Positions 150-28,437 of a DNA stretch of 28,841 nt are shown here, one piece after another. Position 1 is the stretch's first letter; each line of letters opens with the position of its first letter. The translations under genes were made by a program, and so were the position numbers. Where the stretch lies: the IMG/VR virus record IMGVR_UViG_3300010885_003718, positions 1-28,841 of that record; one strand, given 5' to 3'. The DNA comes from a virus. The notes beneath the pieces were generated by a model. It did not search any database. It worked only from the letters and a program-made list of their open reading frames with translations, and was not told where the DNA came from.

Positions 150-614
150 TTATTTAAAAATTTCATAATACGTTTTATTATTGTCATTTTTTTTGCCTTT
201 TAAAATTTGCTTTCTATTATGTATTTTAGAATAAGAAACGTGTACCCAATCTGGCTCTTTGTCATTTCCAAATTCCCAAATTAGTTGGTCGAAGTCTAAA
301 TTCTTTTTTATGTAATCAAAAATTTCTTTGTTGCTAGGTTTCTTACCGGACATATCAATATCCATAGCTTGACCTCCGCAATGCTGACTAGTAGAACTTC
401 CTCCTACGGCAACATTTAGAGGTATTCCTCTCCATACACTACTTACAGAAATTGGAGTATTAAAATGCTCTCTAATTGGCTCAAATACTTTTTCAGCTAA
501 TATCTTCATATTTTCAATTGCATCTAAATTTGGATTATTGTTTACAATTCCTAATCTATCAGCAGTTGCTGAATGTGTACATTCTTCAAATGAAAGGTGT
601 TTACTTATCTGCAT
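150..614 (-). CDS. Endolysin, M15 family (D,D- or L,D-carboxypeptidase-like)
   Basis: This 154-residue protein has the zinc-peptidase signature of peptidase M15. It shows SxHxxGxAxD as SQHCGGQAMD (His78, Asp85) and a later WVHVS with His125, which supply the three usual zinc ligands. Such enzymes cut peptide cross-links of peptidoglycan and act as phage lysins. There is no signal peptide or membrane segment, so it should need a holin to reach the wall. The start at 614 lies inside the end of the holin-like gene (601-768), an overlap of 14 nt, which fits a lysis cassette. A virion-bound wall hydrolase is possible but less likely in this position. Confidence 0.9.
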   Translation of the reverse strand: MQISKHLSFEECTHSATADRLGIVNNNPNLDAIENMKILAEKVFEPIREHFNTPISVSSVWRGIPLNVAVGGSSTSQHCGGQAMDIDMSGKKPSNKEIFDYIKKNLDFDQLIWEFGNDKEPDWVHVSYSKIHNRKQILKGKKNDNNKTYYEIFK

Positions 615-1424: not shown

Positions 1425-3188
1425 TTAGTTGTTATATTTCCAAAAGTCGTTATACTCGCTAGCTATCTGTGCCACCTCTATTGGATTAGTTGGGAATTCA
1501 AACTCGCCTCTTAAATTAGGCAGAATTCCTTTAATTATTCTTCTGGCCTCATTAACTGATACTTCTTGGTCATTAATTTGCATAAATACTTTACGCATCC
1601 ACCAGTGTTTACAGTTAACACCGCCTTTATAAAGAAACAAATTATAGCTTGATGCTCCTTCAATTCCAAATCCGGGATTGTTTGTTAAATCTTGGTCTAG
1701 GTCTTCATAACGATAAAGTAAATTAGCTGACATCATCTTTTGGCAAAATTCTCTTTCTGGAGATTGACTTCCAACGTACTGGTATCTTACTTTGAATAAT
1801 AAATTGTCTTGTTCGCTATCATCTCCAGCAGTACTTGGAATAACACTAGCTAAACTAATCTTTTTTAGTTGAGAATTTAAATGCTTGTCATTTTCGTTTG
1901 ACGGCCTAATATCAACCAGCATCCAATTATCTTTTTTTTGTTCTCCTTTTAAGTTTGCTAATATTTGTTTTCCTAACTCGGTGTCTAAACTTGGAACATT
2001 AAGTTGTGGATTGATTTGTGTTGGATTTAACGCATTATTATTGTCTAATGGTATATTTGTTGGTTCTTCAAAAGATAATGGCTGTAATGTCTTAAAATAA
2101 AGATTTAATGAAATATTATTAAAAGCCAGTATTTTTTTTAAATATTTAATTATTAAATTTTGAAACGGTCTAATTACTGTATTGTCCATTAAAATAGATG
2201 CAGTCTTTAATTCATCTGCATTATTACCAAATCCAGTAGTATCTTTAATACCTAATAACATTGGAGAGATAACTCGATGCGATACCATAATCTTTCGCAT
2301 AGACTCATCAGATAAAAATTGATATTGATTATGAGCATCAGATAATTGTACTGGCTCTATTGTAGCACCGTAGGTATTGTTATCATTAAAAGATAATATA
2401 AATCTACCGGCATTGGAAGTCCCAGCAAATTTAGCTTGAATGTCTCTTTCAATTTGTTTCTGCTCTGTTTCAGTAGGCCTTCCGTTATTAAAATTAATTA
2501 ACATTGATGGAGCTAGGCCATTAAGCACATTATTTAAATGATAATTTGAAATTTCCTCCTCAAGCTCGCAATACTGTAATCCGCCTTGACTGTCTACTGG
2601 TGAATAGTAATAAAATCCAGTTTTATATGGCTTTATGTAAAGTATCTCTTCAGACTCTTCGCTTGTACCAAATGCCGGAATTGGAAGTGGCTTGTTTTGA
2701 TAATTAACGTCTAACCAATTTTCAGAATAATAATAAAATTCTACATCTCCATCTTCATTACATTTACCACTTCTTAAAGTTTCAACTGGCCAATGATTAC
2801 ATTCTACAATTCTAGTTCTATCAACAGAATAAACGACTTGAATAGCACACTGCCCCATAGCTTTTAAGTCATAGCACAATCTTTCAACTGTATCATCATC
2901 AAATAAAAGCATAGCTTGTGCATAGTCGTCTGGTTTAATTAGTTTATCTGTACTATCTAAACCTTTTCCAAATATCATTTGGCTAATACCATTTACAATA
3001 GCATTATTAGTCGGACTACCATTAATTCTATCTTGTAAGTAACCAAAATAATCATTGTCTTCTCCATAAGCAATCCATTCTTGATTTCTAACTTCGACAA
3101 TTTTTGGAGATGTATAACTAGATAAATTAACAATACTAATTGATGATTTTTTATTTTGTTCTACTTTTAATTCTAGTTTCTTTGTCAT
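1425..3188 (-). CDS. Portal protein with an extra C-terminal head-morphogenesis-like domain
   Basis: This 587-residue protein looks like a phage portal: an N-terminal wing (GEDNDYFGYLQDRINGSPTN at about 42-61), a helical crown region, and FLSDESMRKIMVSHRVISPM at 291-310 like the portal core. Portals form the dodecameric DNA channel at one capsid vertex and dock the terminase. Beyond about residue 420 there is a region not needed for a portal: FKVRYQYVG, FCQKMMSANLLYRYEDLD, YNLFLYKGGVNCKHWW. This resembles the C-terminal part seen in Mu-F/SPP1-gp7-like minor head proteins. The gene follows the 3185-3523 gene through an ATGA overlap. Confidence 0.85.
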   Translation of the reverse strand: MTKKLELKVEQNKKSSISIVNLSSYTSPKIVEVRNQEWIAYGEDNDYFGYLQDRINGSPTNNAIVNGISQMIFGKGLDSTDKLIKPDDYAQAMLLFDDDTVERLCYDLKAMGQCAIQVVYSVDRTRIVECNHWPVETLRSGKCNEDGDVEFYYYSENWLDVNYQNKPLPIPAFGTSEESEEILYIKPYKTGFYYYSPVDSQGGLQYCELEEEISNYHLNNVLNGLAPSMLINFNNGRPTETEQKQIERDIQAKFAGTSNAGRFILSFNDNNTYGATIEPVQLSDAHNQYQFLSDESMRKIMVSHRVISPMLLGIKDTTGFGNNADELKTASILMDNTVIRPFQNLIIKYLKKILAFNNISLNLYFKTLQPLSFEEPTNIPLDNNNALNPTQINPQLNVPSLDTELGKQILANLKGEQKKDNWMLVDIRPSNENDKHLNSQLKKISLASVIPSTAGDDSEQDNLLFKVRYQYVGSQSPEREFCQKMMSANLLYRYEDLDQDLTNNPGFGIEGASSYNLFLYKGGVNCKHWWMRKVFMQINDQEVSVNEARRIIKGILPNLRGEFEFPTNPIEVAQIASEYNDFWKYNN

Positions 3189-3523
3189 ATTGTGATGTAA
3201 CTATTGTTGTTAATGGTTGGTGTAATATACTGTCCATTATTAATTGAAAATGTATCTATATTTTGATTTGTACAAAATATTCTATCTTTATAAATTACAT
3301 TACTATTCATAATAAGTTTATAATTGTAAAAAGTATTATTTAATAAAAAATTTAAAGTTACATTTAAAAATAAAATATCAGAACTATAACTATAAGAATT
3401 AACTGAAACTGTATAAATCTGCTTTGTAGTTTCATTTTCTACAACAATAGATAAACTATCAGATACTAAGATAGTAGCAATTGATTTTAATGTTTGTGAT
3501 GCATTTGTATTTATGATTGTCAT
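3185..3523 (-). CDS. Small virion-type protein before the portal, first gene after a late promoter
   Basis: This 112-residue protein is rich in Asn, Ser, Thr, Ile and Tyr and looks all-beta. It has a RIFCTNQNIDTFSINNGQYI segment near the C-terminus that I recall from small structural proteins of Flavobacterium-like phages. It has no signal peptide or membrane segment. It is the first gene after a terminator and a putative late promoter, and its stop overlaps the portal start (ATGA). A head-decoration or neck role fits the place, but no function can be assigned. Confidence 0.6.
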   Translation of the reverse strand: MTIINTNASQTLKSIATILVSDSLSIVVENETTKQIYTVSVNSYSYSSDILFLNVTLNFLLNNTFYNYKLIMNSNVIYKDRIFCTNQNIDTFSINNGQYITPTINNNSYITI

Positions 3524-3527
3524 ATAA

Positions 3528-3554
3528 GTATAACGATAAAATTAAAAATTTTGC
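3528..3554 (-). promoter_or_regulatory. Putative phage late promoter 1 (GCAAA-N14-CGTTATAC)
   Basis: Read on the minus strand, GCAAA (3554-3550) is followed after 14 nt by CGTTATAC (3535-3528), then 4 nt and the ATG at 3523. The same arrangement stands before three other structural genes. It starts immediately after the terminator at 3555-3592. The -10-like CGTT and the CAAA upstream box resemble ECF sigma promoters. The assignment is by comparison within this genome. Confidence 0.65.
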
Positions 3555-6576: not shown

Positions 6577-6972
6577 TTATATTCTTGTTAATGTATTATA
6601 AAAATCAACTGCTGAAGTATTAACATCTTTAAAATTACTTGATAAGTCTGGTAATGAATTATCATAATTAATTCCTAAACTATCTAATTCATTTGCAGTC
6701 TGTAAATATTTATTTTCATAATCACTATATTTACTAGATGCATCTTGAATTATAGTAATTAAATCACTAGCTAAAATTGCTACTTGATTTATAATATCAG
6801 ATACATCTCTATCATAAGTATCAATTACTAATGCAGTCTGTTGTGAAATATCTACTAATGTACCTTGAACTTCTTTAATAGCATCTTCGATAGCACCTAG
6901 ATTTTCTTTTCTTGCTTCTCTTACTTGTTTAATTTTGTTTAGCATTGCTAAAACCTTTGCTTGTGTTTCCAT
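6577..6972 (-). CDS. Helical coiled-coil protein, first gene of a late unit
   Basis: This 131-residue protein is nearly all helical. It has a basic start (MLNKIKQVREARKENLGAIE at about 10-29), then heptad-like Ile/Leu spacing to about 100 and an acidic C-terminus. It has no cysteine, membrane segment or known motif. A putative late promoter stands exactly 4 nt before its ATG. Scaffold accessory, head-fibre stem or chaperone are all possible; none is favoured by the sequence. Confidence 0.6.
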   Translation of the reverse strand: METQAKVLAMLNKIKQVREARKENLGAIEDAIKEVQGTLVDISQQTALVIDTYDRDVSDIINQVAILASDLITIIQDASSKYSDYENKYLQTANELDSLGINYDNSLPDLSSNFKDVNTSAVDFYNTLTRI

Positions 6973-6976
6973 AATT

Positions 6977-7003
6977 GTATAACGATTTAATTAATTTTTT
7001 TGC
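6977..7003 (-). promoter_or_regulatory. Putative phage late promoter 2 (GCAAA-N14-CGTTATAC)
   Basis: On the minus strand GCAAA (7003-6999), 14 nt, then CGTTATAC (6984-6977) lies 4 nt upstream of the ATG at 6972. Both boxes and the spacing are identical to the copy at 3528-3554. No terminator is visible just before it, so readthrough from upstream genes is likely as well. Confidence 0.65.
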
Positions 7004-8202: not shown

Positions 8203-8419
8203 ATACTAAATTATCGTCTTTTTGTGTTGTTAAATTTAATGCTTTGTTACTTGTTAAATAATATGTTTCAATTCTGTAAATAACTCCTATTCCTTGTGCT
8301 ATCATAGAACCATCACAACATTTTACACTGTATGTATTATCATCGCACAAACAACCTCTAGCACCATTTTTTGGACTTGTCCTACTAGGAGTTTTAAATC
8401 TGTTACTTTTAGTTGCCAT
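8192..8419 (-). CDS. Small cysteine-containing protein (75 aa)
   Basis: This 75-residue protein has a basic N-terminus and a compact motif GCLCDDNTYSVKCCDGSM (residues about 22-39) with four cysteines that might bind metal or form disulphides. I recall similar small proteins near the protease gene of Bacteroidota phages, but with no known role. It overlaps its upstream neighbour (protease) by 11 nt and its downstream neighbour by 11 nt, so all three are co-translated. Confidence 0.65.
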   Translation of the reverse strand: MATKSNRFKTPSRTSPKNGARGCLCDDNTYSVKCCDGSMIAQGIGVIYRIETYYLTSNKALNLTTQKDDNLVYGK

Positions 8420-9020
8420 TAATCAATGATTTTATTTCTAGTAATTCTAAACCAGCTAATATTTCATTTTCAATATCTTGATTATTACTTTTCATAGCAG
8501 TAGGTATTTTATCAGCAAAATATCCCTCTATGCTAAATCCTTTTACCTCTCCAGTTTTTATATAATCATTCCAAATATTTTCATTATCTACTTTAATGCT
8601 TCCCATCCACGTGCCTACTGGTACATTTAAATTGTATAGATTAGACTTATCTTTTTCTAGGTCTTCTACAATCCAACTTTCAACCATAGTCAAACCAGAT
8701 ATTTTTTCCATATGTTCAAAAGTAGCATTAGATTGGTTTCCATTTTTAAAAAACATTTCCATACATTTTCTAATAGTATCTTTGCTAAACCAAATCATAT
8801 ATTCTCCACTGTCGTCTTTTCTATAAATTTGTTTTTCTGGAACTAATAATGCTCCCATAATAATTTTCTTTTCAGAACTTACTTGTGCAAATTTTACTTC
8901 TCTAGACTGCTCTTTTAGAGTTATCCAATTTTCTTCAATGGCTGGTGATTCCACAATTGAAATAGCGTCTATTCCACTTAACTCCATTGTCTCATCAATT
9001 ATTAATTCAATTACTTTCAT
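8409..9020 (-). CDS. Prohead protease, XkdF-like (Peptidase_S78_2 type)
   Basis: This 203-residue protein matches the XkdF-like capsid-protease family. It has MGALLVPEKQIYRKDDSGEY (about 55-74), TFEHMEK with His103, MVESWIVEDLEKDKSN (112-127), PVGTWMGSIKVDN and EVKGFSIEGYF with Ser163. His103 and Ser163 sit where the catalytic His and Ser of herpes-like capsid proteases are expected. It should cleave scaffold and capsid N-termini during head maturation. Putative late promoter 3 stands 4 nt before its ATG, making it the first head gene of that unit. Confidence 0.85.
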   Translation of the reverse strand: MKVIELIIDETMELSGIDAISIVESPAIEENWITLKEQSREVKFAQVSSEKKIIMGALLVPEKQIYRKDDSGEYMIWFSKDTIRKCMEMFFKNGNQSNATFEHMEKISGLTMVESWIVEDLEKDKSNLYNLNVPVGTWMGSIKVDNENIWNDYIKTGEVKGFSIEGYFADKIPTAMKSNNQDIENEILAGLELLEIKSLINGN

Positions 9021-9024
9021 ATCT

Positions 9025-9051
9025 ATATAACGTATTTATTTTTAATTTTGT
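9025..9051 (-). promoter_or_regulatory. Putative phage late promoter 3 (ACAAA-N14-CGTTATAT)
   Basis: On the minus strand ACAAA (9051-9047), 14 nt, CGTTATAT (9032-9025), 4 nt, then the ATG at 9020. It differs from copies 1 and 2 at one base in each box. It lies in the 33-nt gap between the tape measure stop and the protease start, where the tail module ends and the head module begins. Confidence 0.65.
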
Positions 9052-15198: not shown

Positions 15199-15454
15199 TT
15201 TTTCTTTGTGCTTTTTTTAATTCTTGTGCTTCTTTTTTTCTCTTTGCTATTTTGTAACACAAATTTTTTAAGCATTTGTGCATATTCATATCTTCTATCT
15301 CTTCATACTTTGTAAGGTCTCCTCCAGCAAGTTCATCGATTGTTGCATACCAATTCCACTCTCTACTAAATTGACTTGATTCTGAAAGGTCATCTTCTCC
15401 ACTCCCTCCAAAGACTTCATTATATAGTTCGTACAATCCAGTCCTAAATTCCAA
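15188..15454 (-). CDS. Frameshift extension of the tail chaperone (gpT-like part)
   Basis: This frame has no ATG; its first codon is the TTG reached after a -1 shift at the T9 run. With slippage after codon 163 the fused product has 163 + 88 = 251 residues. The added part is acidic at first (GGSGEDDLSESSQF) and then Lys-rich (KRKKEAQELKKAQRKNGR). It overlaps the zero frame for 160 bases. It should not be listed as a free-standing gene. It ends 11 nt inside the next gene. Confidence 0.8.
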   Translation of the reverse strand: MEFRTGLYELYNEVFGGSGEDDLSESSQFSREWNWYATIDELAGGDLTKYEEIEDMNMHKCLKNLCYKIAKRKKEAQELKKAQRKNGR

Positions 15455-15942
15455 AAAAAAACCATTGAACCAACTACTGCTGACATTGGCATTTGCATTA
15501 AAGCATCGTGGTATGTGTCTCCTTTGTATTTTTCTACTAAATACTTATCATTTAACTCTACTGTTATTGGTCTATACAAAACTCCCATTGAAGTAATGAT
15601 TGTTTCCCAATCAGATATGTTTGTAATCAAATCTAATAATTCTCCATAAGGCATATCATCAAGTTTAGGCAACCAACCAAATTGAATATCACCTACTTTA
15701 AATTTTTTAACCAGTGATGGCTCTTCTTTTATAATGCTTGATAATTTCTCTACAATAGAACTTACAAACGTATATTGTATATCTAAAACTTCAACGTGTG
15801 TAAGGTTACAAAATATCTCTAGCATTTTTATTTCTAAAAAACTTTCTTGCGTTTGCTTTTCTGCATCTTTTATAGCTTGTAAATATCTCAAATATTGTGA
15901 TAATGTAATATCAGCTAATGAAGTTGGTACTGTTACTTTCAT
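15295..15942 (-). CDS. Tail assembly chaperone, zero-frame product (gpG-like)
   Basis: This 215-residue protein, mostly helical, stands before the other tail genes where phages keep their tail assembly chaperone. At codons 161-164 the message reads GTT TTT TTT TGG inside a run of nine T, an ideal slippery site. Most ribosomes should finish here (residue 215); some slip back one base and make the longer form. In lambda the pair gpG and gpGT coats the tape measure and recruits tail tube subunits. Late promoter 4 lies just upstream of the ATG. The role is based on the slippery design and gene order. Confidence 0.8.
   Translation of the reverse strand: MKVTVPTSLADITLSQYLRYLQAIKDAEKQTQESFLEIKMLEIFCNLTHVEVLDIQYTFVSSIVEKLSSIIKEEPSLVKKFKVGDIQFGWLPKLDDMPYGELLDLITNISDWETIITSMGVLYRPITVELNDKYLVEKYKGDTYHDALMQMPMSAVVGSMVFFWNLGLDCTNYIMKSLEGVEKMTFQNQVNLVESGIGMQQSMNLLEETLQSMKR
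15453..15463 (-). promoter_or_regulatory. Slippery site for programmed -1 frameshift
   Basis: On the minus strand the zero frame is ATG GTT TTT TTT TGG, with nine T in a row at 15461-15453. T TTT TTT is a canonical X XXY YYZ heptamer. Slipping one base back opens the frame that starts at 15454. A run of nine T is also a place where sequencing errors occur, but the two frames and gene context agree with the known tail-chaperone arrangement. Confidence 0.8.
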
Positions 15943-15946
15943 ATTA

Positions 15947-15972
15947 GTATAACGTATTAATTAATTATTTGC
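15947..15972 (-). promoter_or_regulatory. Putative phage late promoter 4 (GCAAA-N13-CGTTATAC)
   Basis: On the minus strand GCAAA (15972-15968), 13 nt, CGTTATAC (15954-15947), 4 nt, then the ATG of the tail chaperone at 15942. The spacer is one base shorter than in the other three copies. It fills the gap between the terminase stop (15979) and the tail module. Confidence 0.65.
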
Positions 15973-15978
15973 GTGAGA

Positions 15979-17145
15979 TTATCTTATTGCATACTTGCCA
16001 TAGTTAGGCCTTGCTAATTTATCGTACAAGCCATAACGAACTGCATCTATTGTGTGGTTAAACATATCTACCGGAACATTTAAAACTACTCCGTTCTTGT
16101 CCTCTTGCCATTTATAGTTTTTAAATTCCTTAATCATATTTAAACTGTCAGAAGTTATGTTTAGTCTATATCTCTTCATCATATCAATTCCAATATTAAC
16201 ACTACCTTGACCTTTCGTTGCTGGTTTAATATTCCACCCCATACGATATAACTCTTCAATTGATTTTGGCTCTGCACTATCAGCAAATATTTCTTTGCGT
16301 TCTATTCCTAGAAGTCTTAAATGGCTATCAATATCTTTATTAGTCAGTCCAGTTTTAAATAGAAGCTCCCGGAGGTACAAGTCGTCTCCTTGTTTCCAAA
16401 TACCAACTAATGTGGTCGGGTCATTCGTAAAACCAAAGTCCATTCCGTAAGATAGAAAGTCTGCTGTCTCCGGGATGGCTTGACAGTCATTAATTCTAAA
16501 GATAATTGATTTGCTAGTTCCTACTTCTCCAAGACCATAAACTCTCCAGTAGTTATCATCGATGTCTTTTAATCTTTCAATCTCCTTAATTGTTTCCTTG
16601 TCTAAAAAAGGATTGTCTAGGTAGTTTGTTATGAAGAAGTCAACGTCATCTCTTGGTTTAATCTTGTCGTAAATAAAGTGAAACTCATCTGATGGATTGT
16701 AGTCTATTATTACTCTACCAGTAGTTCTAAAAATTAACTGTTGCCAGTCTTCGAAATACATTTCGTTGGCCTCGTTAACGTAAAGTAAGTCCCTTTTCCG
16801 ACCTCGTAATTTTTGAGGTTGGTCTAAGGATATAAATTCAATAAGGTTTCCGTTAAGCAAGTATTCCGAGTTGCTTTTGTTATGGTACTCTTCGTTGTAT
16901 AAATCGTACTTTCTTAATATTTCAAAAAAGTCACGCATACAACTTGAACGGAGTGCTGGGTAAGTTTTTCTGCAGATGGTAACAGTAAGTCCAACATTCT
17001 CAGTCGTGTACTTAAAAATTATCCACATAAGAATATTGTAGGTCTTCCCACTTCGAGTGCCACCTTGCTCTATTACAATTCTCTTGTCACTTTTTATTAA
17101 GTGTTCGAAAACAATGTTAGTCTGTATTTTCTGTTTTTCTGCCAA
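15979..17145 (-). CDS. terL: Terminase large subunit
   Basis: This 388-residue packaging motor has an N-terminal ATPase with Walker A GGTRSGKT (28-35), Walker B-like RDLLYVNEANEM (118-129) and a C-terminal RNase H-like nuclease with GMDFG (Asp236), FADSAEP (Asp289) and TIDAVRYG (Asp367). It pumps DNA into the prohead and cuts it. No ATG is available: a TAG stands in frame just two codons before the TTG at 17145, and the next Met is inside the ATPase (residue 40). A TTG start is therefore most likely. It overlaps the small subunit by 29 nt. Confidence 0.95.
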   Translation of the reverse strand: MAEKQKIQTNIVFEHLIKSDKRIVIEQGGTRSGKTYNILMWIIFKYTTENVGLTVTICRKTYPALRSSCMRDFFEILRKYDLYNEEYHNKSNSEYLLNGNLIEFISLDQPQKLRGRKRDLLYVNEANEMYFEDWQQLIFRTTGRVIIDYNPSDEFHFIYDKIKPRDDVDFFITNYLDNPFLDKETIKEIERLKDIDDNYWRVYGLGEVGTSKSIIFRINDCQAIPETADFLSYGMDFGFTNDPTTLVGIWKQGDDLYLRELLFKTGLTNKDIDSHLRLLGIERKEIFADSAEPKSIEELYRMGWNIKPATKGQGSVNIGIDMMKRYRLNITSDSLNMIKEFKNYKWQEDKNGVVLNVPVDMFNHTIDAVRYGLYDKLARPNYGKYAIR

Positions 17146-17866: not shown

Positions 17867-19019
17867 TCTTTTTGATGATTAATTTATCATCTAGCTTTTT
17901 CATTCTATCAATTATAACTTGGCAGTATCTTGGGTCAAACTCTATAACATAGCTTTTTCTTTTTAGTTGCTCACAAGCCACCATTGTCGTTCCAGAACCA
18001 CCAAATGCATCAATTACTATGTCTCCTTGCTTTGATGAGTTTTCTATTTGATAAGAAAATAATCCGATTGGTTTCATTGTAGGATGCTCTCCATTTCTTT
18101 GTGGTTTATCCCATTCAATAACGGTTGTTTGCTTTCTATCTGAATACCATTTATGACTGTCTCCTTTTAACCAACCATATAAACAAGGTTCGTGTTTCCA
18201 TTGGTAATCTTGTCTTCCCATTACCATTGAATTATTCACCCATATTAATTGTTGTTTTAAAAGCCATCCAGCATCAACCATTGCTTTGGCAAAGTTTATT
18301 ATTTCTGAAGATGCGTGCCACACATAAATTGCACCACCTTTTTTTACTACTGTAGACTGTGCAGTGTAAAAGTCGTAAAGAAACTTATAAAAGTCATCGT
18401 TGCTCATTGAGTCGTTTTCAATAGTAAGAGCTTCTTTTGTTTTACCTTCGTAAGCTACGTTGTAAGGTGGGTCTGTTATAACCATATCAGCAAGTTGTCC
18501 TTGCATAAGTTTCTCAAAAGTGTCTGTTTGAGTACTGTCTCCACAAAGTAATCTGTGCTCTCCAATCTCGAATAAGTCTCCTAAAACAATATCGGTTTCA
18601 CTTCCACCTTCCGGAACATAAAAGTCGTCGTCTTCTGCCTCTACCGGCTCTGTATTAAAATCAACTGGCAAGTCTAGTCCCCACTCTTCTAACTCTTCTG
18701 CATTCCATTCATTTGCTAATATATCCCAGTCCCACTCTCCACCGCTGGTGTTGTCTTTTATTAAAAACTCTCTTTGTTGCTCTTCTGTGAGGTCTGTTAT
18801 AATTATAGGCACTTCTTTTAGGCCAGCTTCTTTGCAAGCTTTAAAACGCATATTTCCACCAAGTATGACCATATCTTGATTAACTACTATTGGTCTGATG
18901 TCTAGCATTTCCGGGAAGTCCTTTATTGACTGTACAAGCTTTTTAAATTTGTCGTCTTTTATTAATCTTGGATTGTTAGGATTAATCTTTACTTCTGAAA
19001 CTTTTACTATTTTATTCAT
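17850..19019 (-). CDS. ParB-domain DNA methyltransferase (adenine N6 or cytosine N4)
   Basis: This 389-residue fusion has an N-terminal ParB/sulfiredoxin-like domain (about 1-95; VILGGNMRFKACKEAG at 51-66) and a C-terminal amino-methyltransferase. Motif IV is DPPY at 183-186; the S-adenosylmethionine motif FGGSGTT is at 339-345. This order (DPPY first) marks a beta-class enzyme, which methylates adenine N6 or cytosine N4 in a specific site. It probably protects phage DNA from host restriction. The gene overlaps the DnaA-like gene by ATGA. It has no partner endonuclease nearby. Confidence 0.9.
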   Translation of the reverse strand: MNKIVKVSEVKINPNNPRLIKDDKFKKLVQSIKDFPEMLDIRPIVVNQDMVILGGNMRFKACKEAGLKEVPIIITDLTEEQQREFLIKDNTSGGEWDWDILANEWNAEELEEWGLDLPVDFNTEPVEAEDDDFYVPEGGSETDIVLGDLFEIGEHRLLCGDSTQTDTFEKLMQGQLADMVITDPPYNVAYEGKTKEALTIENDSMSNDDFYKFLYDFYTAQSTVVKKGGAIYVWHASSEIINFAKAMVDAGWLLKQQLIWVNNSMVMGRQDYQWKHEPCLYGWLKGDSHKWYSDRKQTTVIEWDKPQRNGEHPTMKPIGLFSYQIENSSKQGDIVIDAFGGSGTTMVACEQLKRKSYVIEFDPRYCQVIIDRMKKLDDKLIIKKNGVLL

Positions 19020-19390
19020 ACAGTCATATTTATGCAGTTATTAATTTGATTTAATTGCTCTTCATTATCTATTGATTTAATTTTTTGCAGAAGCAGAGAT
19101 TTTACACTTGTACGACCTAAAATTTTATCTTTCAATTCTCTTATATCTTCTCTTCTGCTTAATACTTCATCAAATATATTAACTGAATGTAATACGCTAC
19201 AATGATGATAGCTTTTACCTTTTTGTCTAAAAGTATCTCTCACTTGATATAACGTATAATTTAATTCTTTGTGCAATATGTAACAGTAAAGTGCTCTAGC
19301 ATCAACCAGATTTAATTTCCTTGAATTCTGATACAAATCTAATTTTAGTGCTGAACTAATTTGGTCAGCAATATGTTCTTCTTTTGTCAT
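19016..19390 (-). CDS. Stand-alone DnaA domain IV-like protein
   Basis: This 124-residue protein resembles only the DNA-binding end (domain IV) of the initiator DnaA. It has ARALYCYILHKELNYTL (31-47), then QVRDTFRQKGKSYHHCSVLH (49-68), where HHCSVLHS corresponds to the DHTTVLHA signature that contacts the DnaA box, and a last helix to about 92. There is no AAA+ ATPase part. It could bind an origin or compete with host DnaA. It overlaps both neighbours as ATGA. The His-for-Asp change in the signature leaves site specificity open. Confidence 0.7.
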   Translation of the reverse strand: MTKEEHIADQISSALKLDLYQNSRKLNLVDARALYCYILHKELNYTLYQVRDTFRQKGKSYHHCSVLHSVNIFDEVLSRREDIRELKDKILGRTSVKSLLLQKIKSIDNEEQLNQINNCINMTV

Positions 19391-19572: not shown

Positions 19573-20279
19573 TCTGTTTTTAATTTTAATAGTTGATAGC
19601 ACTCTAAAAACTTCTCACGTGCTTTATTTCGATAGATTTTTTTGTATAGACTAAATACTGCTCTAATGTAGGAATAGTTGCTTAAACAGTCCTTAAATAC
19701 CTTTTTACAGTATGCTTCTCCATAACCTTTGCAGTAGTTCACATTGTCGCAACTGTCTCCAGTTATCATTTGAGTCCAAAAGTTACGCTTTGCTTCTGCT
19801 TCTGATATATCATAAAAACATTGTTTTTTATAGTGATAGTCATAAATTAAGCAAGGGAACTGTTTATAATCTTTGTCGATTGAAACAATCATAACTTCAT
19901 CTCTACCAAAAGTATCAGTTAATGTTTTCCAATAGGTAGCAACTACATCGTCTGTCTCTACCCCGTTACCTCTAATAGCTTCATATTTGTCTATGACATA
20001 ATACTGCAAATCATTTAATATTGGAGGGACTTCTCTGTCTATTCTGTTTGCTTTGTATGTTTTACTTATCTGTTTGCGAAAGTTGCCTCTTGCACCAGCA
20101 AATGTAATTACCTTATCAACTTCGTGATCCAGTTCAATAGTATTGATTATTTTCATTACTACCTCGTTGTATTTGTCTTTGGCCTCTTCGATGTTATGGT
20201 AACCGGTATCCTCTGGAGTTTCTTTTTGCTTATAACAACTACTCCAGATTAAACTGTCTGCGTCTATTAATACTATCAT
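19569..20279 (-). CDS. 5'-3' exonuclease / flap endonuclease (PIN-like, T5/T7-exo type)
   Basis: This 236-residue protein carries the acidic metal-binding set of the FEN/5'-3' exonuclease family: MIVLIDADS (Asp6, Asp8), GVETDDVVA (Glu108, Asp110, Asp111), IVSIDKDYKQ (Asp135, Asp137) and MITGDSCDNV (Asp175, Asp178), then a helix-hairpin-helix-like CKGYGEAYCKK. It trims 5' ends and flaps in replication, and can supply 3' tails to the ERF annealing protein. It starts at the last base of the C5 methylase stop (TAATG) and overlaps the next gene by ATGA. Confidence 0.9.
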   Translation of the reverse strand: MIVLIDADSLIWSSCYKQKETPEDTGYHNIEEAKDKYNEVVMKIINTIELDHEVDKVITFAGARGNFRKQISKTYKANRIDREVPPILNDLQYYVIDKYEAIRGNGVETDDVVATYWKTLTDTFGRDEVMIVSIDKDYKQFPCLIYDYHYKKQCFYDISEAEAKRNFWTQMITGDSCDNVNYCKGYGEAYCKKVFKDCLSNYSYIRAVFSLYKKIYRNKAREKFLECYQLLKLKTE

Positions 20280-20911
20280 TAGAATAATTGTGTTTGGTTA
20301 ATATTTGATTTTTCTACTATGCCTCTAGCAATATTAAAAATAGTTTTACCAGCTTCGTAGTCTACTAGGTTTCGTGCCATTTTTCTAATTGACTGTTTAC
20401 CTTTGTATTTATAAAAATCATAATCGTGAAAATTACATAATCTGTTTACTTCATCTCTACCAACTGAAATCCCTATTGCTGGTCTTTCTCCAATATCATT
20501 TGGCAGTTTAAAGTTTGTCCAGTATAAATGCCTACCTCTTTTTTGTGCTGGTATTAATGGCTCATAATAAGGTATTACATTCTCAACACAATATTTACCT
20601 TCAAAAAAATTATCTAAAAAAATAACTTCTTGATACAAACTCATTTCTGGATATTGCATTTTAATTTTATTTTTATTTGACATTACTAACCTACTATGGC
20701 TAGGGCAAGGAGGCGAACTCCATATAAAATCGAACTCTTTGTAATGGTCTAATAAGTATTGGTGTGCATCAGCTACAATAACAGTATCGTTTGGAAATCT
20801 CTCTTGGTATAATCTAGCAGCTTCTGGGTCGAGTTCAACTGCTGTAACTTCACAATCAGTCCATTTATAACGATTGCCTCCTAAACAAGCATATAAATTT
20901 AAAACTTTCAT
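20279..20911 (-). CDS. Compact C5-cytosine DNA methyltransferase
   Basis: This 210-residue enzyme has the C5-methylase motifs in order: motif I LNLYACLGGN (4-13), Glu26 of motif II, motif IV SSPPCPSHSR with catalytic Cys69, motif VI ENV (110-112), motif VIII QKRGR (123-127) and a motif X-like end (ARNLVDYEAGKTIFNIARGI). It is shorter than usual (about 300-400), with little room for a target-recognition domain, so specificity may be relaxed or unusual. It adds methyl to cytosine C5 and likely blocks restriction. It follows a small coiled-coil gene by ATGA overlap. Confidence 0.85.
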   Translation of the reverse strand: MKVLNLYACLGGNRYKWTDCEVTAVELDPEAARLYQERFPNDTVIVADAHQYLLDHYKEFDFIWSSPPCPSHSRLVMSNKNKIKMQYPEMSLYQEVIFLDNFFEGKYCVENVIPYYEPLIPAQKRGRHLYWTNFKLPNDIGERPAIGISVGRDEVNRLCNFHDYDFYKYKGKQSIRKMARNLVDYEAGKTIFNIARGIVEKSNINQTQLF

Positions 20912-21048: not shown

Positions 21049-21079
21049 CAAAGATAATCTTTTTTAGTTTATTAACAAA
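21049..21079 (-). promoter_or_regulatory. Host-type Bacteroidota promoter (TTTG-N19-TATCTTTG)
   Basis: On the minus strand TTTG (21079-21076), exactly 19 nt, then TATCTTTG (21056-21049). This is a perfect match to the -33/-7 promoter form TTTG-N19-TAnnTTTG of Flavobacterium and Bacteroides. It lies in a 71-nt gap and points at the coiled-coil/C5-methylase/exonuclease genes, so these should be read by the unmodified host RNA polymerase. Confidence 0.85.
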
Positions 21080-21095
21080 TTTTTAGTATTTATTT

Positions 21096-21905
21096 TTAAT
21101 CTGTACATCCTCCAGAGTTACAAGTTGAACCTCCTCCAAAAATAAAGTCAGATTGTAAACCTATTTTTTTAATATTAAAATAAGAAATTTTACTTTTCCA
21201 TTTTCTATTATTTGTTTCTTGCTCTGCAAACCATTGCATCTTTAATTGTTCATCTTCCCAGTTTTTACGAAGTTGTTGTACTGGTTTATGAAAACATCCA
21301 ACGCAATTACTATCTGTAGGAAATATCAAATCAGTTGATAAACTCCATAGGTAAACTTGATAATGGTCTATTTTATCTCTTACTAAAGGATAATCTAATT
21401 CTCTATATTTTTGAGTTATCCATTTGTTTCTACCATTATCAGATAAACCATTATGAAATTTAAAATCTGTATTATTATAATTTACTCTGTTTTCTTCATC
21501 GTATCTAATTCCTAATCGAGTTGAAACAATTTCTTTTATTTCATTTCTACAAAAGTTTGCAATAGGTTTAATTTTCATTTCAGTAGTGCAAAATCGAGTT
21601 ATACTATTTGGAATATATTTTTTCCTTTTAATAACTTCTTCAAATGTTTCTCCAGTAAGCCAAGTTATTTCACTTCCTATAAACTGCTCTAAATCTAAAA
21701 CAACTTTTAAAGTCAAATCGCTTTCTGCTGTTGCAATAAATTCAATTCCTATTTTATCAGATACTAATTGAATTAATTTTTTATCTTTAGGACTGTATCT
21801 TTTATCTTCTATTCTTACAAGTGAAAATACATTATAATCTGCTGGATAGTGCTTTGCTAAATACGATGAAGTTTTACCGCCAGATATACTATTTAAAGTT
21901 TTCAT
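21096..21905 (-). CDS. PAPS reductase-family protein (DndC/adenine nucleotide alpha hydrolase-like)
   Basis: This 269-residue protein begins with the pyrophosphate-binding loop SISGGKTSSY (6-15) of the PAPS reductase/ATP-pyrophosphatase superfamily. Six cysteines (106, 119, 201, 204, 262, 267) include CVGC (201-204) and a C-terminal C-x4-C. Three or four of them could hold an iron-sulphur cluster, as in DndC-like enzymes. The reaction in phages is not settled; sulphur chemistry on DNA, RNA or a nucleotide is likely. It stands 2 nt after the PD-(D/E)XK-like gene and ends just before the host-type promoter. Confidence 0.8.
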   Translation of the reverse strand: MKTLNSISGGKTSSYLAKHYPADYNVFSLVRIEDKRYSPKDKKLIQLVSDKIGIEFIATAESDLTLKVVLDLEQFIGSEITWLTGETFEEVIKRKKYIPNSITRFCTTEMKIKPIANFCRNEIKEIVSTRLGIRYDEENRVNYNNTDFKFHNGLSDNGRNKWITQKYRELDYPLVRDKIDHYQVYLWSLSTDLIFPTDSNCVGCFHKPVQQLRKNWEDEQLKMQWFAEQETNNRKWKSKISYFNIKKIGLQSDFIFGGGSTCNSGGCTD

Positions 21906-22998: not shown

Positions 22999-23183
22999 AA
23001 TCTTAATCTTTTAATTTCTAGTGATACTTCATTCCAGTAGTTGCAAACATTTGTTTCATTTCTTTTTCTGCTTTGTGTTATTATTCCATTTACTATTTCT
23101 TTTAAATAATCGTAAGGATATTTATTTAAAAGTAATACTGCTCTTTCAGTTGCAGTAAATTGTTCTATTAGGTTAAAAATCAT
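22995..23183 (-). CDS. Small protein following the sigma factor (62 aa)
   Basis: This 62-residue protein starts MIFNLIEQFTATERAVLLLN and ends VCNYWNEVSLEIKRLRL. It overlaps the sigma-factor stop region by 11 nt and the next gene by ATGA. It could be an accessory or anti-sigma peptide because many ECF sigma factors are followed by such a partner, but it has no membrane segment and no recognised anti-sigma motif. The end resembles that of the 19387-19572 protein. Confidence 0.65.
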   Translation of the reverse strand: MIFNLIEQFTATERAVLLLNKYPYDYLKEIVNGIITQSRKRNETNVCNYWNEVSLEIKRLRL

Positions 23184-23718
23184 CTCTAATTTGTCTTTTA
23201 ATAATGTTAATAGTGTTTCTTATACTCCAGTAGGATATATTTAATTCCTTGCTTAATTTGGTAACATTTCTTTTTTCTACCAGCACTAATTGATAAAGTG
23301 ATTTGATGTAATATAGTTGTGCTTTCTCTTCTGTATAACCTTTGATGCTATCAATTTTGTTATCTATAAAAATAACCCAACTAGCAACTTTTTGTTTCTT
23401 CAGATAAAAATCATTTGTCTCGATATATTCATCATCATCTATAAAGTCTATGTCTTCATTTAATTCAATTAATATCATTCTATCAGCAGTTCTAATATTG
23501 CTAGTGTACATATTTTTTAAAGTAACATAAACAAAATAGAAGTTTATGCTTGTCTCATCATACATCAAATCATTATCTTTTCTTAAACTATAATCGTATA
23601 ACTTGAGATACATATCTTGCACATAATCTTCTGCATTGTCTTTTGAACAACCAAAAGAGGTCATATATTTTATCCATAGTGTGTGCTTTTCTCCAAGTAT
23701 CTCAAGTATATTTCTCAT
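23173..23718 (-). CDS. ECF-like RNA polymerase sigma factor
   Basis: This 181-residue protein has the size and plan of an ECF sigma factor. Region 2 covers about 11-80 with DNAEDYVQDMYLKLY (27-41), the core-binding helix, and FYFVYVTLKNMYTSNIRTAD (60-79) at the -10-reading part. Region 4 covers about 140-180 with VTKLSKELNISYWSIRNTIN (152-171), a helix-turn-helix for the -35 box. It would redirect host RNA polymerase to phage promoters. Four ECF-type promoter-like motifs before structural genes are its candidate targets. It overlaps the helicase gene by ATGA and its sequence is far from housekeeping sigma. Confidence 0.8.
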   Translation of the reverse strand: MRNILEILGEKHTLWIKYMTSFGCSKDNAEDYVQDMYLKLYDYSLRKDNDLMYDETSINFYFVYVTLKNMYTSNIRTADRMILIELNEDIDFIDDDEYIETNDFYLKKQKVASWVIFIDNKIDSIKGYTEEKAQLYYIKSLYQLVLVEKRNVTKLSKELNISYWSIRNTINIIKRQIRDDF

Positions 23719-24626
23719 AAAAAGTTTAATTGGCTTTCCTTAATAATTCTTAATATTGATTTTCCATTAATACTAAAACCTACATTGTTTTGTAAAGCAA
23801 CAATCTCAATAGGATTGTCAATAGCAGTTGGTCTACCTCCAGTTTCAATTTCTTTTACTTTTCTAATATGTATCATAGTAGTTGTATAAAGTTGTGGATG
23901 CAAAGTTAGTCTGTGAATTACAATAAAATCATCTGCTCTGTTTACAAATTTTCCTCCACCCTCTACATCACTTGCCATTGGTGGTAAAGGATGTCCAGCA
24001 AACTGATGGTCATTCTTATAAACCATTCTTAAAGCATTAGTATTTGCGTGAGTATTTAACCAAAGTGAAACTTTATTTTCTTTGCAAAACATTCGCATCT
24101 CTGTACACGCTTGATAGTCATATTCGTGACCTCCTAAATTCTTCATTTGCTCATTGTCTTTAACCAGTGCATTGTACGGATCTAAAAGAATACCATTGTA
24201 GTTAAATCCTTTCTTTACTTCTTTGAACATTACCAGTGCAGTATGATAGTCATACATAACTGAATTATCAACAAACTTAAAATGCTTATTTATAAAATCT
24301 GTATGCTCTTTGAAGTTGCTTTCAGAAATTAAATTAATTGGTGTTTCGTCTAGGAACTCAACCAGCTTTCTAATTAAAGAGTAACTGTCATTTTCTGTAC
24401 TACAAACTAACCATTTTAAATCGTGCTTTAAAGAATAGCATAACATTAAATACAGTATAGAAGTAGTTTTTCCCACGTTTGCGTGACCAAGTACAATATT
24501 GAAATTTGAGGTCTTAAAACGTATGTATTCGTCTAATTCTGGTATATCAAGTTTCAAACCCTCTTTTAGTTTTCCACTTCTAATATTACGGATAATATCT
24601 AATTGGTCTTTATAATTTATTAACAT
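23715..24626 (-). CDS. Replicative helicase-like RecA-fold ATPase (DnaB C-terminal type)
   Basis: This 303-residue ATPase has Walker A GHANVGKT (47-54), Walker B ILLDP (146-150) and a later segment ASDVEGGGKFVNRADDFIVI like the sensor/arginine region of phage helicases of the DnaB/T7 gp4 class. It lacks the DnaB N-terminal collar and any primase domain, so priming must come from the host. It should form a hexamer that unwinds DNA at the fork; a RecA-like recombinase is the alternative. It starts just after a terminator and a shared 12-base upstream motif, and it is coupled to the sigma factor gene. Confidence 0.8.
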   Translation of the reverse strand: MLINYKDQLDIIRNIRSGKLKEGLKLDIPELDEYIRFKTSNFNIVLGHANVGKTTSILYLMLCYSLKHDLKWLVCSTENDSYSLIRKLVEFLDETPINLISESNFKEHTDFINKHFKFVDNSVMYDYHTALVMFKEVKKGFNYNGILLDPYNALVKDNEQMKNLGGHEYDYQACTEMRMFCKENKVSLWLNTHANTNALRMVYKNDHQFAGHPLPPMASDVEGGGKFVNRADDFIVIHRLTLHPQLYTTTMIHIRKVKEIETGGRPTAIDNPIEIVALQNNVGFSINGKSILRIIKESQLNFL

Positions 24627-24684: not shown

Positions 24685-25044
24685 TTAAAATGGTAAATCA
24701 TCATCTTCAACTTCTCCAGTATTTGGATTTAATGATAAATTAGAATTTCTGTCTGGCATAAAGCTACTAGCAGATTTTTCTTTCTCTCCAGTAGTTATTT
24801 TCCAAGCAGTAAGATTAACATAATACTTTCCTTGCCATTCGCTACCTTGCACATTAATTGATACTGTTACAAATTGTCCTATTTTGTAGCCATCTAATAC
24901 ATTACATTTATCTTGAGTAAAATCGATCGGGATAGATTGAGGATATTGGTTATCAGTTTTTATAACTAACTGTCTTTTCTTAAATCCTTTTGCTCCAAAT
25001 GTTTCTGTTTGTCCGATAACTATTATTGTTCCTTGTAATTCCAT
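24685..25044 (-). CDS. DUF3127 / single-stranded DNA-binding-like protein
   Basis: This 119-residue protein starts MELQGTIIVIGQTETFGAKG and continues RQLVIKTDNQYPQSIPIDFT, then QGSEWQGKYYVNLTAWKI: an OB-fold pattern of DUF3127, a Bacteroidota family similar to SSB. The C-terminal linker is Ser/Asn-rich and ends in acidic DDDLPF, like the SSB tip that recruits partners. It should coat single-stranded DNA during replication and annealing. It follows ERF by 2 nt, as SSB and annealing proteins commonly do. Confidence 0.8.
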   Translation of the reverse strand: MELQGTIIVIGQTETFGAKGFKKRQLVIKTDNQYPQSIPIDFTQDKCNVLDGYKIGQFVTVSINVQGSEWQGKYYVNLTAWKITTGEKEKSASSFMPDRNSNLSLNPNTGEVEDDDLPF

Positions 25045-25046
25045 TT

Positions 25047-25622
25047 CTATTTGCTTAATAATTTAGATTTAACTTCTTCAGACAGTTTGTACTTTGTTTC
25101 TACAATAGCAATATCTCCACCACCATCAATATAATCTTTAGCTTTCAAAAAAGCATCAGAGTCAATTACCATAGTTACCTTTTCTTTTACTGTTTTTGGC
25201 TCATTTCCGTGCTTATTAGTTGCATCTGCATCAGAAGTATCATCAATCAATAATAAGTTGCCTAAAGCGTACTTTTTACCATAACTAGAACTACTGCCAT
25301 ATCTTTGTGCAGTTGCCATTCCTTTTTGCTCTAAATCAACTCCAACAATAGATTGACAATCTATACTGTCTTGTGAGTTACAATCCCAAATAGTTGCAAC
25401 AGATGCCATAATAGGTGGATTTGCATTTATCAATGTTTCGTTTATAGTAAAATAAACTCCATACTTTTCATTGATTGGTTTTAATGCCTCTAATATGCTT
25501 TCAGCACTTCTGTAATAATAGTTTCCGAATTTATTATAGCTTCCTTTTTTAGCTTTAAATTCAAACTGTATCATACTTAATTTTTGTCTTAAAGTAAAAT
25601 CTGATAAATTAATCTTTTCCAT
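25047..25622 (-). CDS. ERF-family single-strand annealing protein
   Basis: This 191-residue recombinase shows the ERF pattern: KAKKGSYNKFGNYYYRSAES (24-43), KYGVYFTINETL and the strong ATAQRYGSSSSYGKKYALGN (103-122), then LLLIDDTSDAD. ERF proteins form rings on single-stranded DNA and anneal complementary strands, used to circularise or repair phage genomes. Together with the exonuclease (19569-20279) and the SSB-like protein it forms a Red-like system. It lies 4 nt after a small unknown gene, and there is no separate promoter. Confidence 0.9.
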   Translation of the reverse strand: MEKINLSDFTLRQKLSMIQFEFKAKKGSYNKFGNYYYRSAESILEALKPINEKYGVYFTINETLINANPPIMASVATIWDCNSQDSIDCQSIVGVDLEQKGMATAQRYGSSSSYGKKYALGNLLLIDDTSDADATNKHGNEPKTVKEKVTMVIDSDAFLKAKDYIDGGGDIAIVETKYKLSEEVKSKLLSK

Positions 25623-27717: not shown

Positions 27718-27748
27718 CAAAGTTATAAAAAAAGTTTTAATAAAAAAG
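27718..27748 (-). promoter_or_regulatory. Likely host-type early promoter (-7 box TAACTTTG)
   Basis: On the minus strand TAACTTTG (27725-27718) matches the Bacteroidota -7 box TAnnTTTG. At the 19-nt distance there is only CTTT (27748-27745) instead of TTTG, in a T-rich stretch. The site is in the 197-nt gap between the NinG terminator and the first early gene, where a promoter is needed. Confidence 0.55.
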
Positions 27749-27891: not shown

Positions 27892-28437
27892 TTATTTTAT
27901 TTCTTTAATCATAATATCAAATTTTATTTTTTTGGCTATTAGCTCTGCCTTGCTAAATTTATAATCTCTTTTGCTGTCGCTTTCGGATTCCAACTGTTCC
28001 ACATACTGCTGGCCATATCTTTTTATCAACCCGGATCTATACTGAAGCTCATTTCCGTTTAAAAATCTGTTACACTTTCTGCATTGTTTATGGCAGTTTC
28101 TCTCGTCAAAAATTAAACCACTGAATAGCTCTGCTTTAAAATAATGACCACCATCAAACAATTCTGTTTCTTTAACACCACAACTAATGCAAGGCAAGGC
28201 CTCGTCACGCATTCTAACCCACTTTTGAAACGATGTTTTAGCTTCTGCCTCATATTTTCCCAAAGTTTTTAGTTTTGCCCTTAAATCGGCTTTTTGTACG
28301 TTCCACTCTTTTTTTTGTTTAATAGCTTTTAAGTTGTTAGAGTGAACTATTGCACATTTATAACCGCAGACTACTTGTGCAAACTGAACTGGTGTAAATT
28401 TTTCTAAACAAGATTTACATTTTTTTTCTTTTTGCAT
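27892..28437 (-). CDS. ninG: NinG/Rap-like recombination protein with zinc-finger and HNH-like motifs
   Basis: This 181-residue protein matches lambda NinG: an N-terminal zinc-binding C-x2-C (7, 10) with C-x3-C (24, 28), a basic middle (KAIKQKKEWNVQKADLRAKL) and a C-terminal C-x2-C (83, 86), FDGGHYF with His98, and CHKQCRKCNRF (115-125), like an HNH nuclease. NinG (Rap) promotes branch resolution in phage recombination. It is alone between the AT-rich region and a terminator, so it has its own transcript. Motif AATCACTAAAAA stands 7 nt before the ATG. Confidence 0.85.
   Translation of the reverse strand: MQKEKKCKSCLEKFTPVQFAQVVCGYKCAIVHSNNLKAIKQKKEWNVQKADLRAKLKTLGKYEAEAKTSFQKWVRMRDEALPCISCGVKETELFDGGHYFKAELFSGLIFDERNCHKQCRKCNRFLNGNELQYRSGLIKRYGQQYVEQLESESDSKRDYKFSKAELIAKKIKFDIMIKEIK

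Follow-up and report, generated by a model that had tools for sequence, protein, structure and literature searches.

A putative phage-encoded ECF-type sigma factor and predicted late promoters set at start codons in a group of Bacteroidota phages

We propose, with a probability of roughly 0.8, that a phage-encoded two-domain (region 2 + region 4) sigma factor of the ECF type reads a set of late promoters in its own genome, producing an early-to-late switch in which transcription would start at the ATG of the promoter-proximal gene. The proposal concerns the window, that is, the whole stretch of 28,841 nucleotides that was analysed, together with its relatives, and it draws on a gene, its predicted fold, a motif, the fixed spacing of this motif to start codons, the co-occurrence of gene and sites and their concerted variation, all of which were computed here. 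The first-pass annotation had suggested that such a switch results from the reading of these sites by a phage ECF-like sigma, and this suggestion was supported by two genomic tests. It would give a testable transcription programme to a widespread aquatic phage group, for which none is described in the literature searched.

The main genes of the window are all located on the minus strand, so transcription runs from high to low coordinates. In that direction the order is NinG, Erf, SSB, DnaB-like helicase, sigma, the PAPS-reductase-like gene, methyltransferase, exonuclease and terminase, followed by the structural block. The sigma gene comes directly after the helicase gene, which overlaps its start by 4 nt. 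The first-pass annotation had reported a 181-residue open reading frame at 23173-23718 with two sigma-like peptides, both of which are present in the product; the strand had to be corrected to minus, the plus strand of this interval being full of stops. Host-type TANNTTTG boxes occupy early intergenic positions, for example at 27725 and 21056. The main features, in the direction of transcription, are the following.

27892-28437, minus strand: NinG, early replication block
27718..27725, minus strand: host-type -7 box TAACTTTG before an early gene, candidate early promoter
25047-25622, minus strand: Erf, early replication block
24685-25044, minus strand: SSB, early replication block
23715..24626, minus strand: DnaB-like helicase, early replication block with SSB, Erf and NinG
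23173..23718 (coding direction 23718..23173), minus strand: putative sigma factor gene, 181 aa (window protein P0001), from the open reading frame and the predicted fold
21096-21905, minus strand: phosphoadenosine phosphosulfate reductase-like gene, between sigma and terminase
21049..21056, minus strand: host-type -7 box TATCTTTG before the gene at 20279-20911, candidate early promoter
15979..17145, minus strand: terminase large subunit, last gene ahead of the first late promoter
15295..15942, minus strand: first late gene, 215 aa, matching PHROG 32199, no assigned function
8409..9020, minus strand: prohead (head maturation) protease-like gene by PHROG match, behind promoter 2
6577..6972, minus strand: late gene of 131 aa, no assigned function, behind promoter 3
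3185..3523, minus strand: gene of 112 aa behind promoter 4, directly ahead of the portal gene
1425-3188, minus strand: portal, structural block
150-614, minus strand: endolysin, structural block

Searched alone against Pfam Sigma70_r2, P0001 fell short of the cut-off (E=0.038). Among the 73 aligned members of its family, 33 matched Sigma70_r2 at E<=0.01 and 5 matched Sigma70_r4_2, and the family shares a conserved pattern, DxVQ..MY in region 2.2 and N..L....D..R in regions 2.3-2.4, which we take to resemble that of ECF sigmas. The AlphaFold2 model of P0001 (pLDDT 82.8) showed two helical domains and a floppy linker; its pTM of 0.43 makes the relative placing of the domains uncertain. Region 2 would comprise residues ~1-85 and region 4 residues ~102-181, on either side of a flexible linker at 90-101 that is the single low-confidence linker of the 181 aa, and no region 1.1 or region 3 is present. 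A Foldseek search of the PDB returned almost exclusively ECF sigma factors as best matches, with M. tuberculosis SigL at the top (6dv9_F, E=7e-5), and in VIA-align region 2 and region 4 each matched ECF domains separately. Thus, residues 1-85 were aligned with the ECF region 2 structures of RpoE (5uxx; Z 8.8, rmsd 2.6, 79 aligned) and 4lup (Z 7.5), and residues 100-181 with region 4 of sigmaE bound to -35 DNA (2h27; Z 7.1, rmsd 3.0, 66 aligned), a Z that is middling for a helical domain. The modelled two-domain fold is that of the bacterial ECF (group IV) sigmas SigL, SigH, SigE and SigW, although the window sigma is phage-borne and its sequence similarity is near the detection limit. Three sigma homologues in relatives (L118, L123 and L124) seem to start at TTG, not ATG, and such starts could keep early sigma levels low.

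Four copies of a motif (G/A)CAAA-N13/14-CGTTATA(C/T) had been noted before structural genes. We recovered these at the same positions, each directly preceding a gene of the late block; the count needed amendment, since the window holds five exact matches, all on the minus strand, of which four are the candidate promoters. The -10 box of ECF sigma factors begins with CGT, as does the phage box, and the -35/-10 spacing of the phage sites is shorter than is usual for ECF sigmas: RCAAA and CGTTATAY are separated by 14 nt in three of the window sites and by 13 nt in that at 15947-15972. In all four, CGTTATAY ends exactly 4 nt before an ATG (at 3523, 6972, 9020 and 15942). This fixed geometry had been overlooked in the first-pass annotation.

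15947..15972, minus strand: predicted late promoter 1, GCAAA-N13-CGTTATAC and then TAAT-ATG, directly after the terminase gene; predicted start 15942
9025..9051, minus strand: predicted late promoter 2, ACAAA-N14-CGTTATAT and then AGAT-ATG; predicted start 9020
6977..7003, minus strand: predicted late promoter 3, GCAAA-N14-CGTTATAC and then AATT-ATG; predicted start 6972
3528..3554, minus strand: predicted late promoter 4, GCAAA-N14-CGTTATAC and then TTAT-ATG; predicted start 3523
19247..19272, minus strand: fifth exact match, intragenic (ORF 19390..19016), no ATG behind

The fifth match is probably a coding coincidence, because in two relatives (G008 and G018) the peptide at this place is unchanged while its codons differ synonymously; less probably, it could serve as an internal promoter of the methyltransferase gene. 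When CGTTATAYNNNTATG was searched with at most one mismatch, five matches (four of them exact) were obtained in the window against 0.34 expected, and none of 100 shuffles reached five. We also scored the window with a matrix built from 87 sites of other phages; neither the window nor its two closest relatives nor the P12024S group contributed to it. The four promoters took the top four scores (20.8-24.1), followed by the intragenic match (18.5) and the next site (6.9), and dinucleotide-shuffled windows yielded 0.05 matches each with a score as high as the fourth-best or higher, none of them placed before an ATG.

Portal and sigma searches recovered relatives in many IMG/VR contigs; among the matches listed, the only isolates were the Nonlabens phages P12024S and P12024L, and a single sigma relative was found in cellular genome contigs, on a Bacteroidia MAG contig. 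In ~57 related phage records we collected 102 non-redundant sites upstream of late genes. CGTTA was found 131 times at -12 from ATG versus ~8 times at other offsets, and CGTTA with CAAA upstream 101 times at -12 versus 0-13 times at other offsets. The proposed check on motif copies at non-start positions thus came out in favour of the promoter reading, the box being enriched only at -12, and this enrichment, together with the CGTTATAYNNNTATG and matrix shuffles, rules out a chance origin of the sites. NCAAA lay 13-15 nt from the box in 98 of the 102 sites, and 98% of site-bearing genes had a gap of at least 20 nt ahead of them, compared with 54% of other genes. All sites except one of 121 were on the strand of the sigma gene; none were found in the 2-8 kb upstream of it, where host-type boxes concentrate. 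Because of these gaps, the spacing and the sites with short leaders described below, the element looks tied to transcription and not to ribosome binding. The idea that relatives without CGTTATA lack the system was ruled out, as drifted boxes stand at the same place.

We then considered where transcription would begin. Distances were measured from the end of CGTTATA to the ATG and counted for sites followed within 40 nt by an ATG that begins a reading frame of 90 codons or more. The distance was 5 in 97 and 6 in 11 of the ~147 sites with such a nearby ATG, and about one quarter leave a leader of 2 to ~25 nt, so that leaderless transcripts would be the rule without being universal. Some of the leadered sites precede genes that match in size the genes found after leaderless sites in other relatives. 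The ATGs behind the boxes are likely to be true start codons, since the product of 15295..15942 matches PHROG 32199 from residue 1 of both, the best PHROG match of the 8409..9020 product begins at residue 1, and in P12024S the ATGs that follow the boxes are those annotated as CDS starts in GenBank. T was found at -1 in 94% of sites versus 43% of other genes, and T-1/A+1 is a favoured initiator. In Flavobacterium johnsoniae, positions -12 to -5 are occupied by the host -7 box, which lies 4-5 nt from the measured transcript start (PMC6847099). The phage box spans the same positions relative to the ATG, and with the host geometry the transcript would start at the A of AUG. The geometry and T-1 thus lend good support to the prediction of late mRNAs with no leader or almost none, starting at or next to the A of the ATG.

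It is possible, if unlikely, that the sites are promoters of the phage sigma from which transcription starts elsewhere, giving normal short leaders, and that the distance to the ATG has no significance. In some relatives the same promoter stands 8-26 nt ahead of the ATG, and most F. johnsoniae mRNAs are leadered, with leaders longer than 10 nt (PMC6847099), as this reading would have it; however, one exact distance recurs in 97 of the ~147 sites, with 11 more off by 1 nt, T-1/A+1 is enriched at the sites, and with only 4 nt between the -10 element and the ATG there is very little space for a leader. Initiation at or next to the ATG is thus retained as the preferred reading.

The first-pass annotation had proposed to check whether sigma and motif co-occur in relatives, and the outcome agreed with its prediction. 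The sigma was present in all 14 records of at least 20 kb (G002-G015) that had first been picked by their portal gene, blind to the sigma, and also in P12024S. A sigma-blind DNA scan yielded 20 records of at least 18 kb, 14 of them with two or more sites (records with a single match may be due to chance). A clear sigma was found in ten of these 14 and a divergent candidate sigma-like ORF (E=0.001) in G056; no sigma was detectable in the other three, namely G071, a shorter record in which the two sites of G056 recur, and the 18-kb fragments G064 and G068. Because of the candidate ORF of G056 and the shorter record of G071, these two were rejected as motif-positive, sigma-negative counterexamples. 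No sites were found in five sigma-less Bacteroidota phages (11b, FCL-2, P12002L, phi10:1 and the first 50 kb of crAss001).

Comparison of the sites between genomes revealed that the box changes together within a genome. All four G013 sites carried CGATATAT, those of G012 carried TGTTATA/TGTTAAA, and CGTTAATA was common to P12024S, G053 and G054; shared non-consensus pairs within genomes numbered 37 versus a permutation mean of 3.1 and a maximum of 15. In the sigma, the near-invariant region 2.4 residues D73 and R76 were both changed in G012, G036, G050 and L477, and the CG box was absent in all four, being replaced by TGTTATAT (G012 and G036), a degenerate box (G050) or GGTTATAC (L477). The D73/R76 rule was seen after the fact; the TGTTATAT boxes of G036 were found after its sigma had suggested loss of C-12. 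On the tree, the D73+R76 changes have two well-supported and up to four origins, all in agreement and too few for significance, since a sign test requires six independent changes. It is therefore suggestive, from these sequence comparisons, that loss of D73+R76 goes with loss of C-12. A rule in which D73 or R76 alone determines C-12 was discarded, as the window, G035, G037, G049 and G056 change one of the two residues and keep CG; the window sigma has S73, yet CG is kept. Two further boxes had no clear correlate among the sigma residues: CGTTAAA(A/G) in G006 (L108), at the same distance from the ATG, and CGATATAT in G013 (L122).

These data also bear on the improbable reading that a host alternative (ECF) sigma recognizes the late promoters, the phage protein being accessory or anti-sigma-like. 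Bacteroidota hosts possess many ECF sigmas of their own, and the phage protein is a predicted reader of the sites. Against a host sigma, non-homologous sites within a single phage genome share their changes of the box, and in 2-4 lineages region 2.4 of the phage sigma changes along with them; where sites are repeated in a near-complete relative, the sigma or a candidate sigma is encoded as well, and the five other Bacteroidota phages are devoid of such sites. The pairing of the phage sigma with these promoters consequently has strong genomic support. That the box is a Kozak-like translation-initiation signal and not a promoter was ruled out as very improbable: its place at -12 to -5 of start codons would suit such a signal, as would its frequent A at -3, since an A there favours initiation in the host group (PMC6847099), but a -35-like CAAA accompanies it at 13-15 nt, it stands almost only before genes with a gap of at least 20 nt (98% vs 54%), chiefly within the late block and on a single strand, and it persists where the ATG is 8-26 nt away.

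In the mechanism that we propose, the sigma gene would be co-transcribed with the replication genes from what are probably host-type promoters (TANNTTTG), and the phage sigma would bind the host core RNA polymerase and redirect it to the predicted late promoters (A/G)CAAA-N13..15-CGTTATAY before the first gene of each structural-gene cluster. Transcription from the four window promoters would begin at or next to the A of the ATG, and the late mRNAs would be translated leaderless or nearly so. Core binding, box recognition by the phage sigma, timing, the start at the ATG and leaderless translation are the steps that we infer. We lean, with less assurance than for the switch itself, towards a broader picture in which, throughout a large and almost uncultured group of Bacteroidota phages, the sigma sets the start at the A of AUG, leaderless late mRNAs couple the switch to the mode of translation, and the equivalents of D73/R76 specify C-12. 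The mRNAs of the hosts are mostly leadered and have no Shine-Dalgarno signals; if late mRNAs were leaderless, the phage would tie its late switch to an alternative translation initiation in non-Shine-Dalgarno bacteria. The sigma/promoter pairs that drift together form a natural series from which the recognition of the -10 box by region 2.4 could be worked out, the motif allows late operons and true gene starts to be annotated directly from metagenomic contigs, and a cultivable relative (P12024S/L) is available for work on the switch.

Two other phages are known to encode late sigma factors that have promoters of their own, phiEco32 gp36 and Salmonella phage 7-11 gp47 (PMC8948821, PMC4331800), which have been called a phage ECF subgroup (PMC7881722). 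They share with the window a small phage sigma, low-copy middle/late promoters before gene clusters and early genes transcribed from host promoters, and a promoter set before late genes that matches the sigma is present here as in that class. The hosts of phiEco32 and 7-11 are, in contrast, enterobacterial, their promoters are tAATGTAtA and GTAAtg-16-aCTA, and the available portions of the reports do not describe a fusion of promoter and start codon. Late transcription by 7-11 gp47 with the host core was shown in vitro. A tblastn search of P0001 against 50,697 phage records, among which the presence of phiEco32 and 7-11 is unconfirmed, gave no match at E<=0.01. The phiKZ late promoters have a start signal that overlaps TATG, with G as the transcript start (cited in PMC5312081); they are read by a multisubunit phage RNA polymerase and not by a sigma, so the likeness is one of motif only. 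The Nonlabens (Persicivirga) phages P12024S and P12024L, of the genus Inhavirus, have a homologous portal and a homologous sigma, gp33, which in P12024S is annotated as a hypothetical protein with the GenBank note 'Sigma-70 region 2'. We found at least five CGTTAATA-N4-ATG promoters in these phages, with late starts predicted in P12024S at the ATGs 3031, 5412, 23961, 25201 and 26802. The two phages differ from the window in their box (CGTTAATA versus CGTTATAY) and in a sigma only ~24% identical to that of the window; no description of this promoter was found in the literature searched. With no prior description of the sigma family, its promoter or its start-codon geometry in the open-access literature, which sets the limit of the statement, the family, the promoter and the fusion with the start codon appear undescribed.

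A per-locus 5-mer search on sigma-centred flanks was uninformative, because most flanks hold few late promoters. In the sigma-encoding 37-kb record G028 no promoter site was found; this record has two different sigma homologues (L313 and L314), one of them at the contig edge, and is possibly a mixed assembly. Finally, G061 (L480) and G069 (L482) carry 3-4 perfect sites, but their sigma is more distant and shorter and has a different region 4, and the system may extend beyond the portal family of the window.
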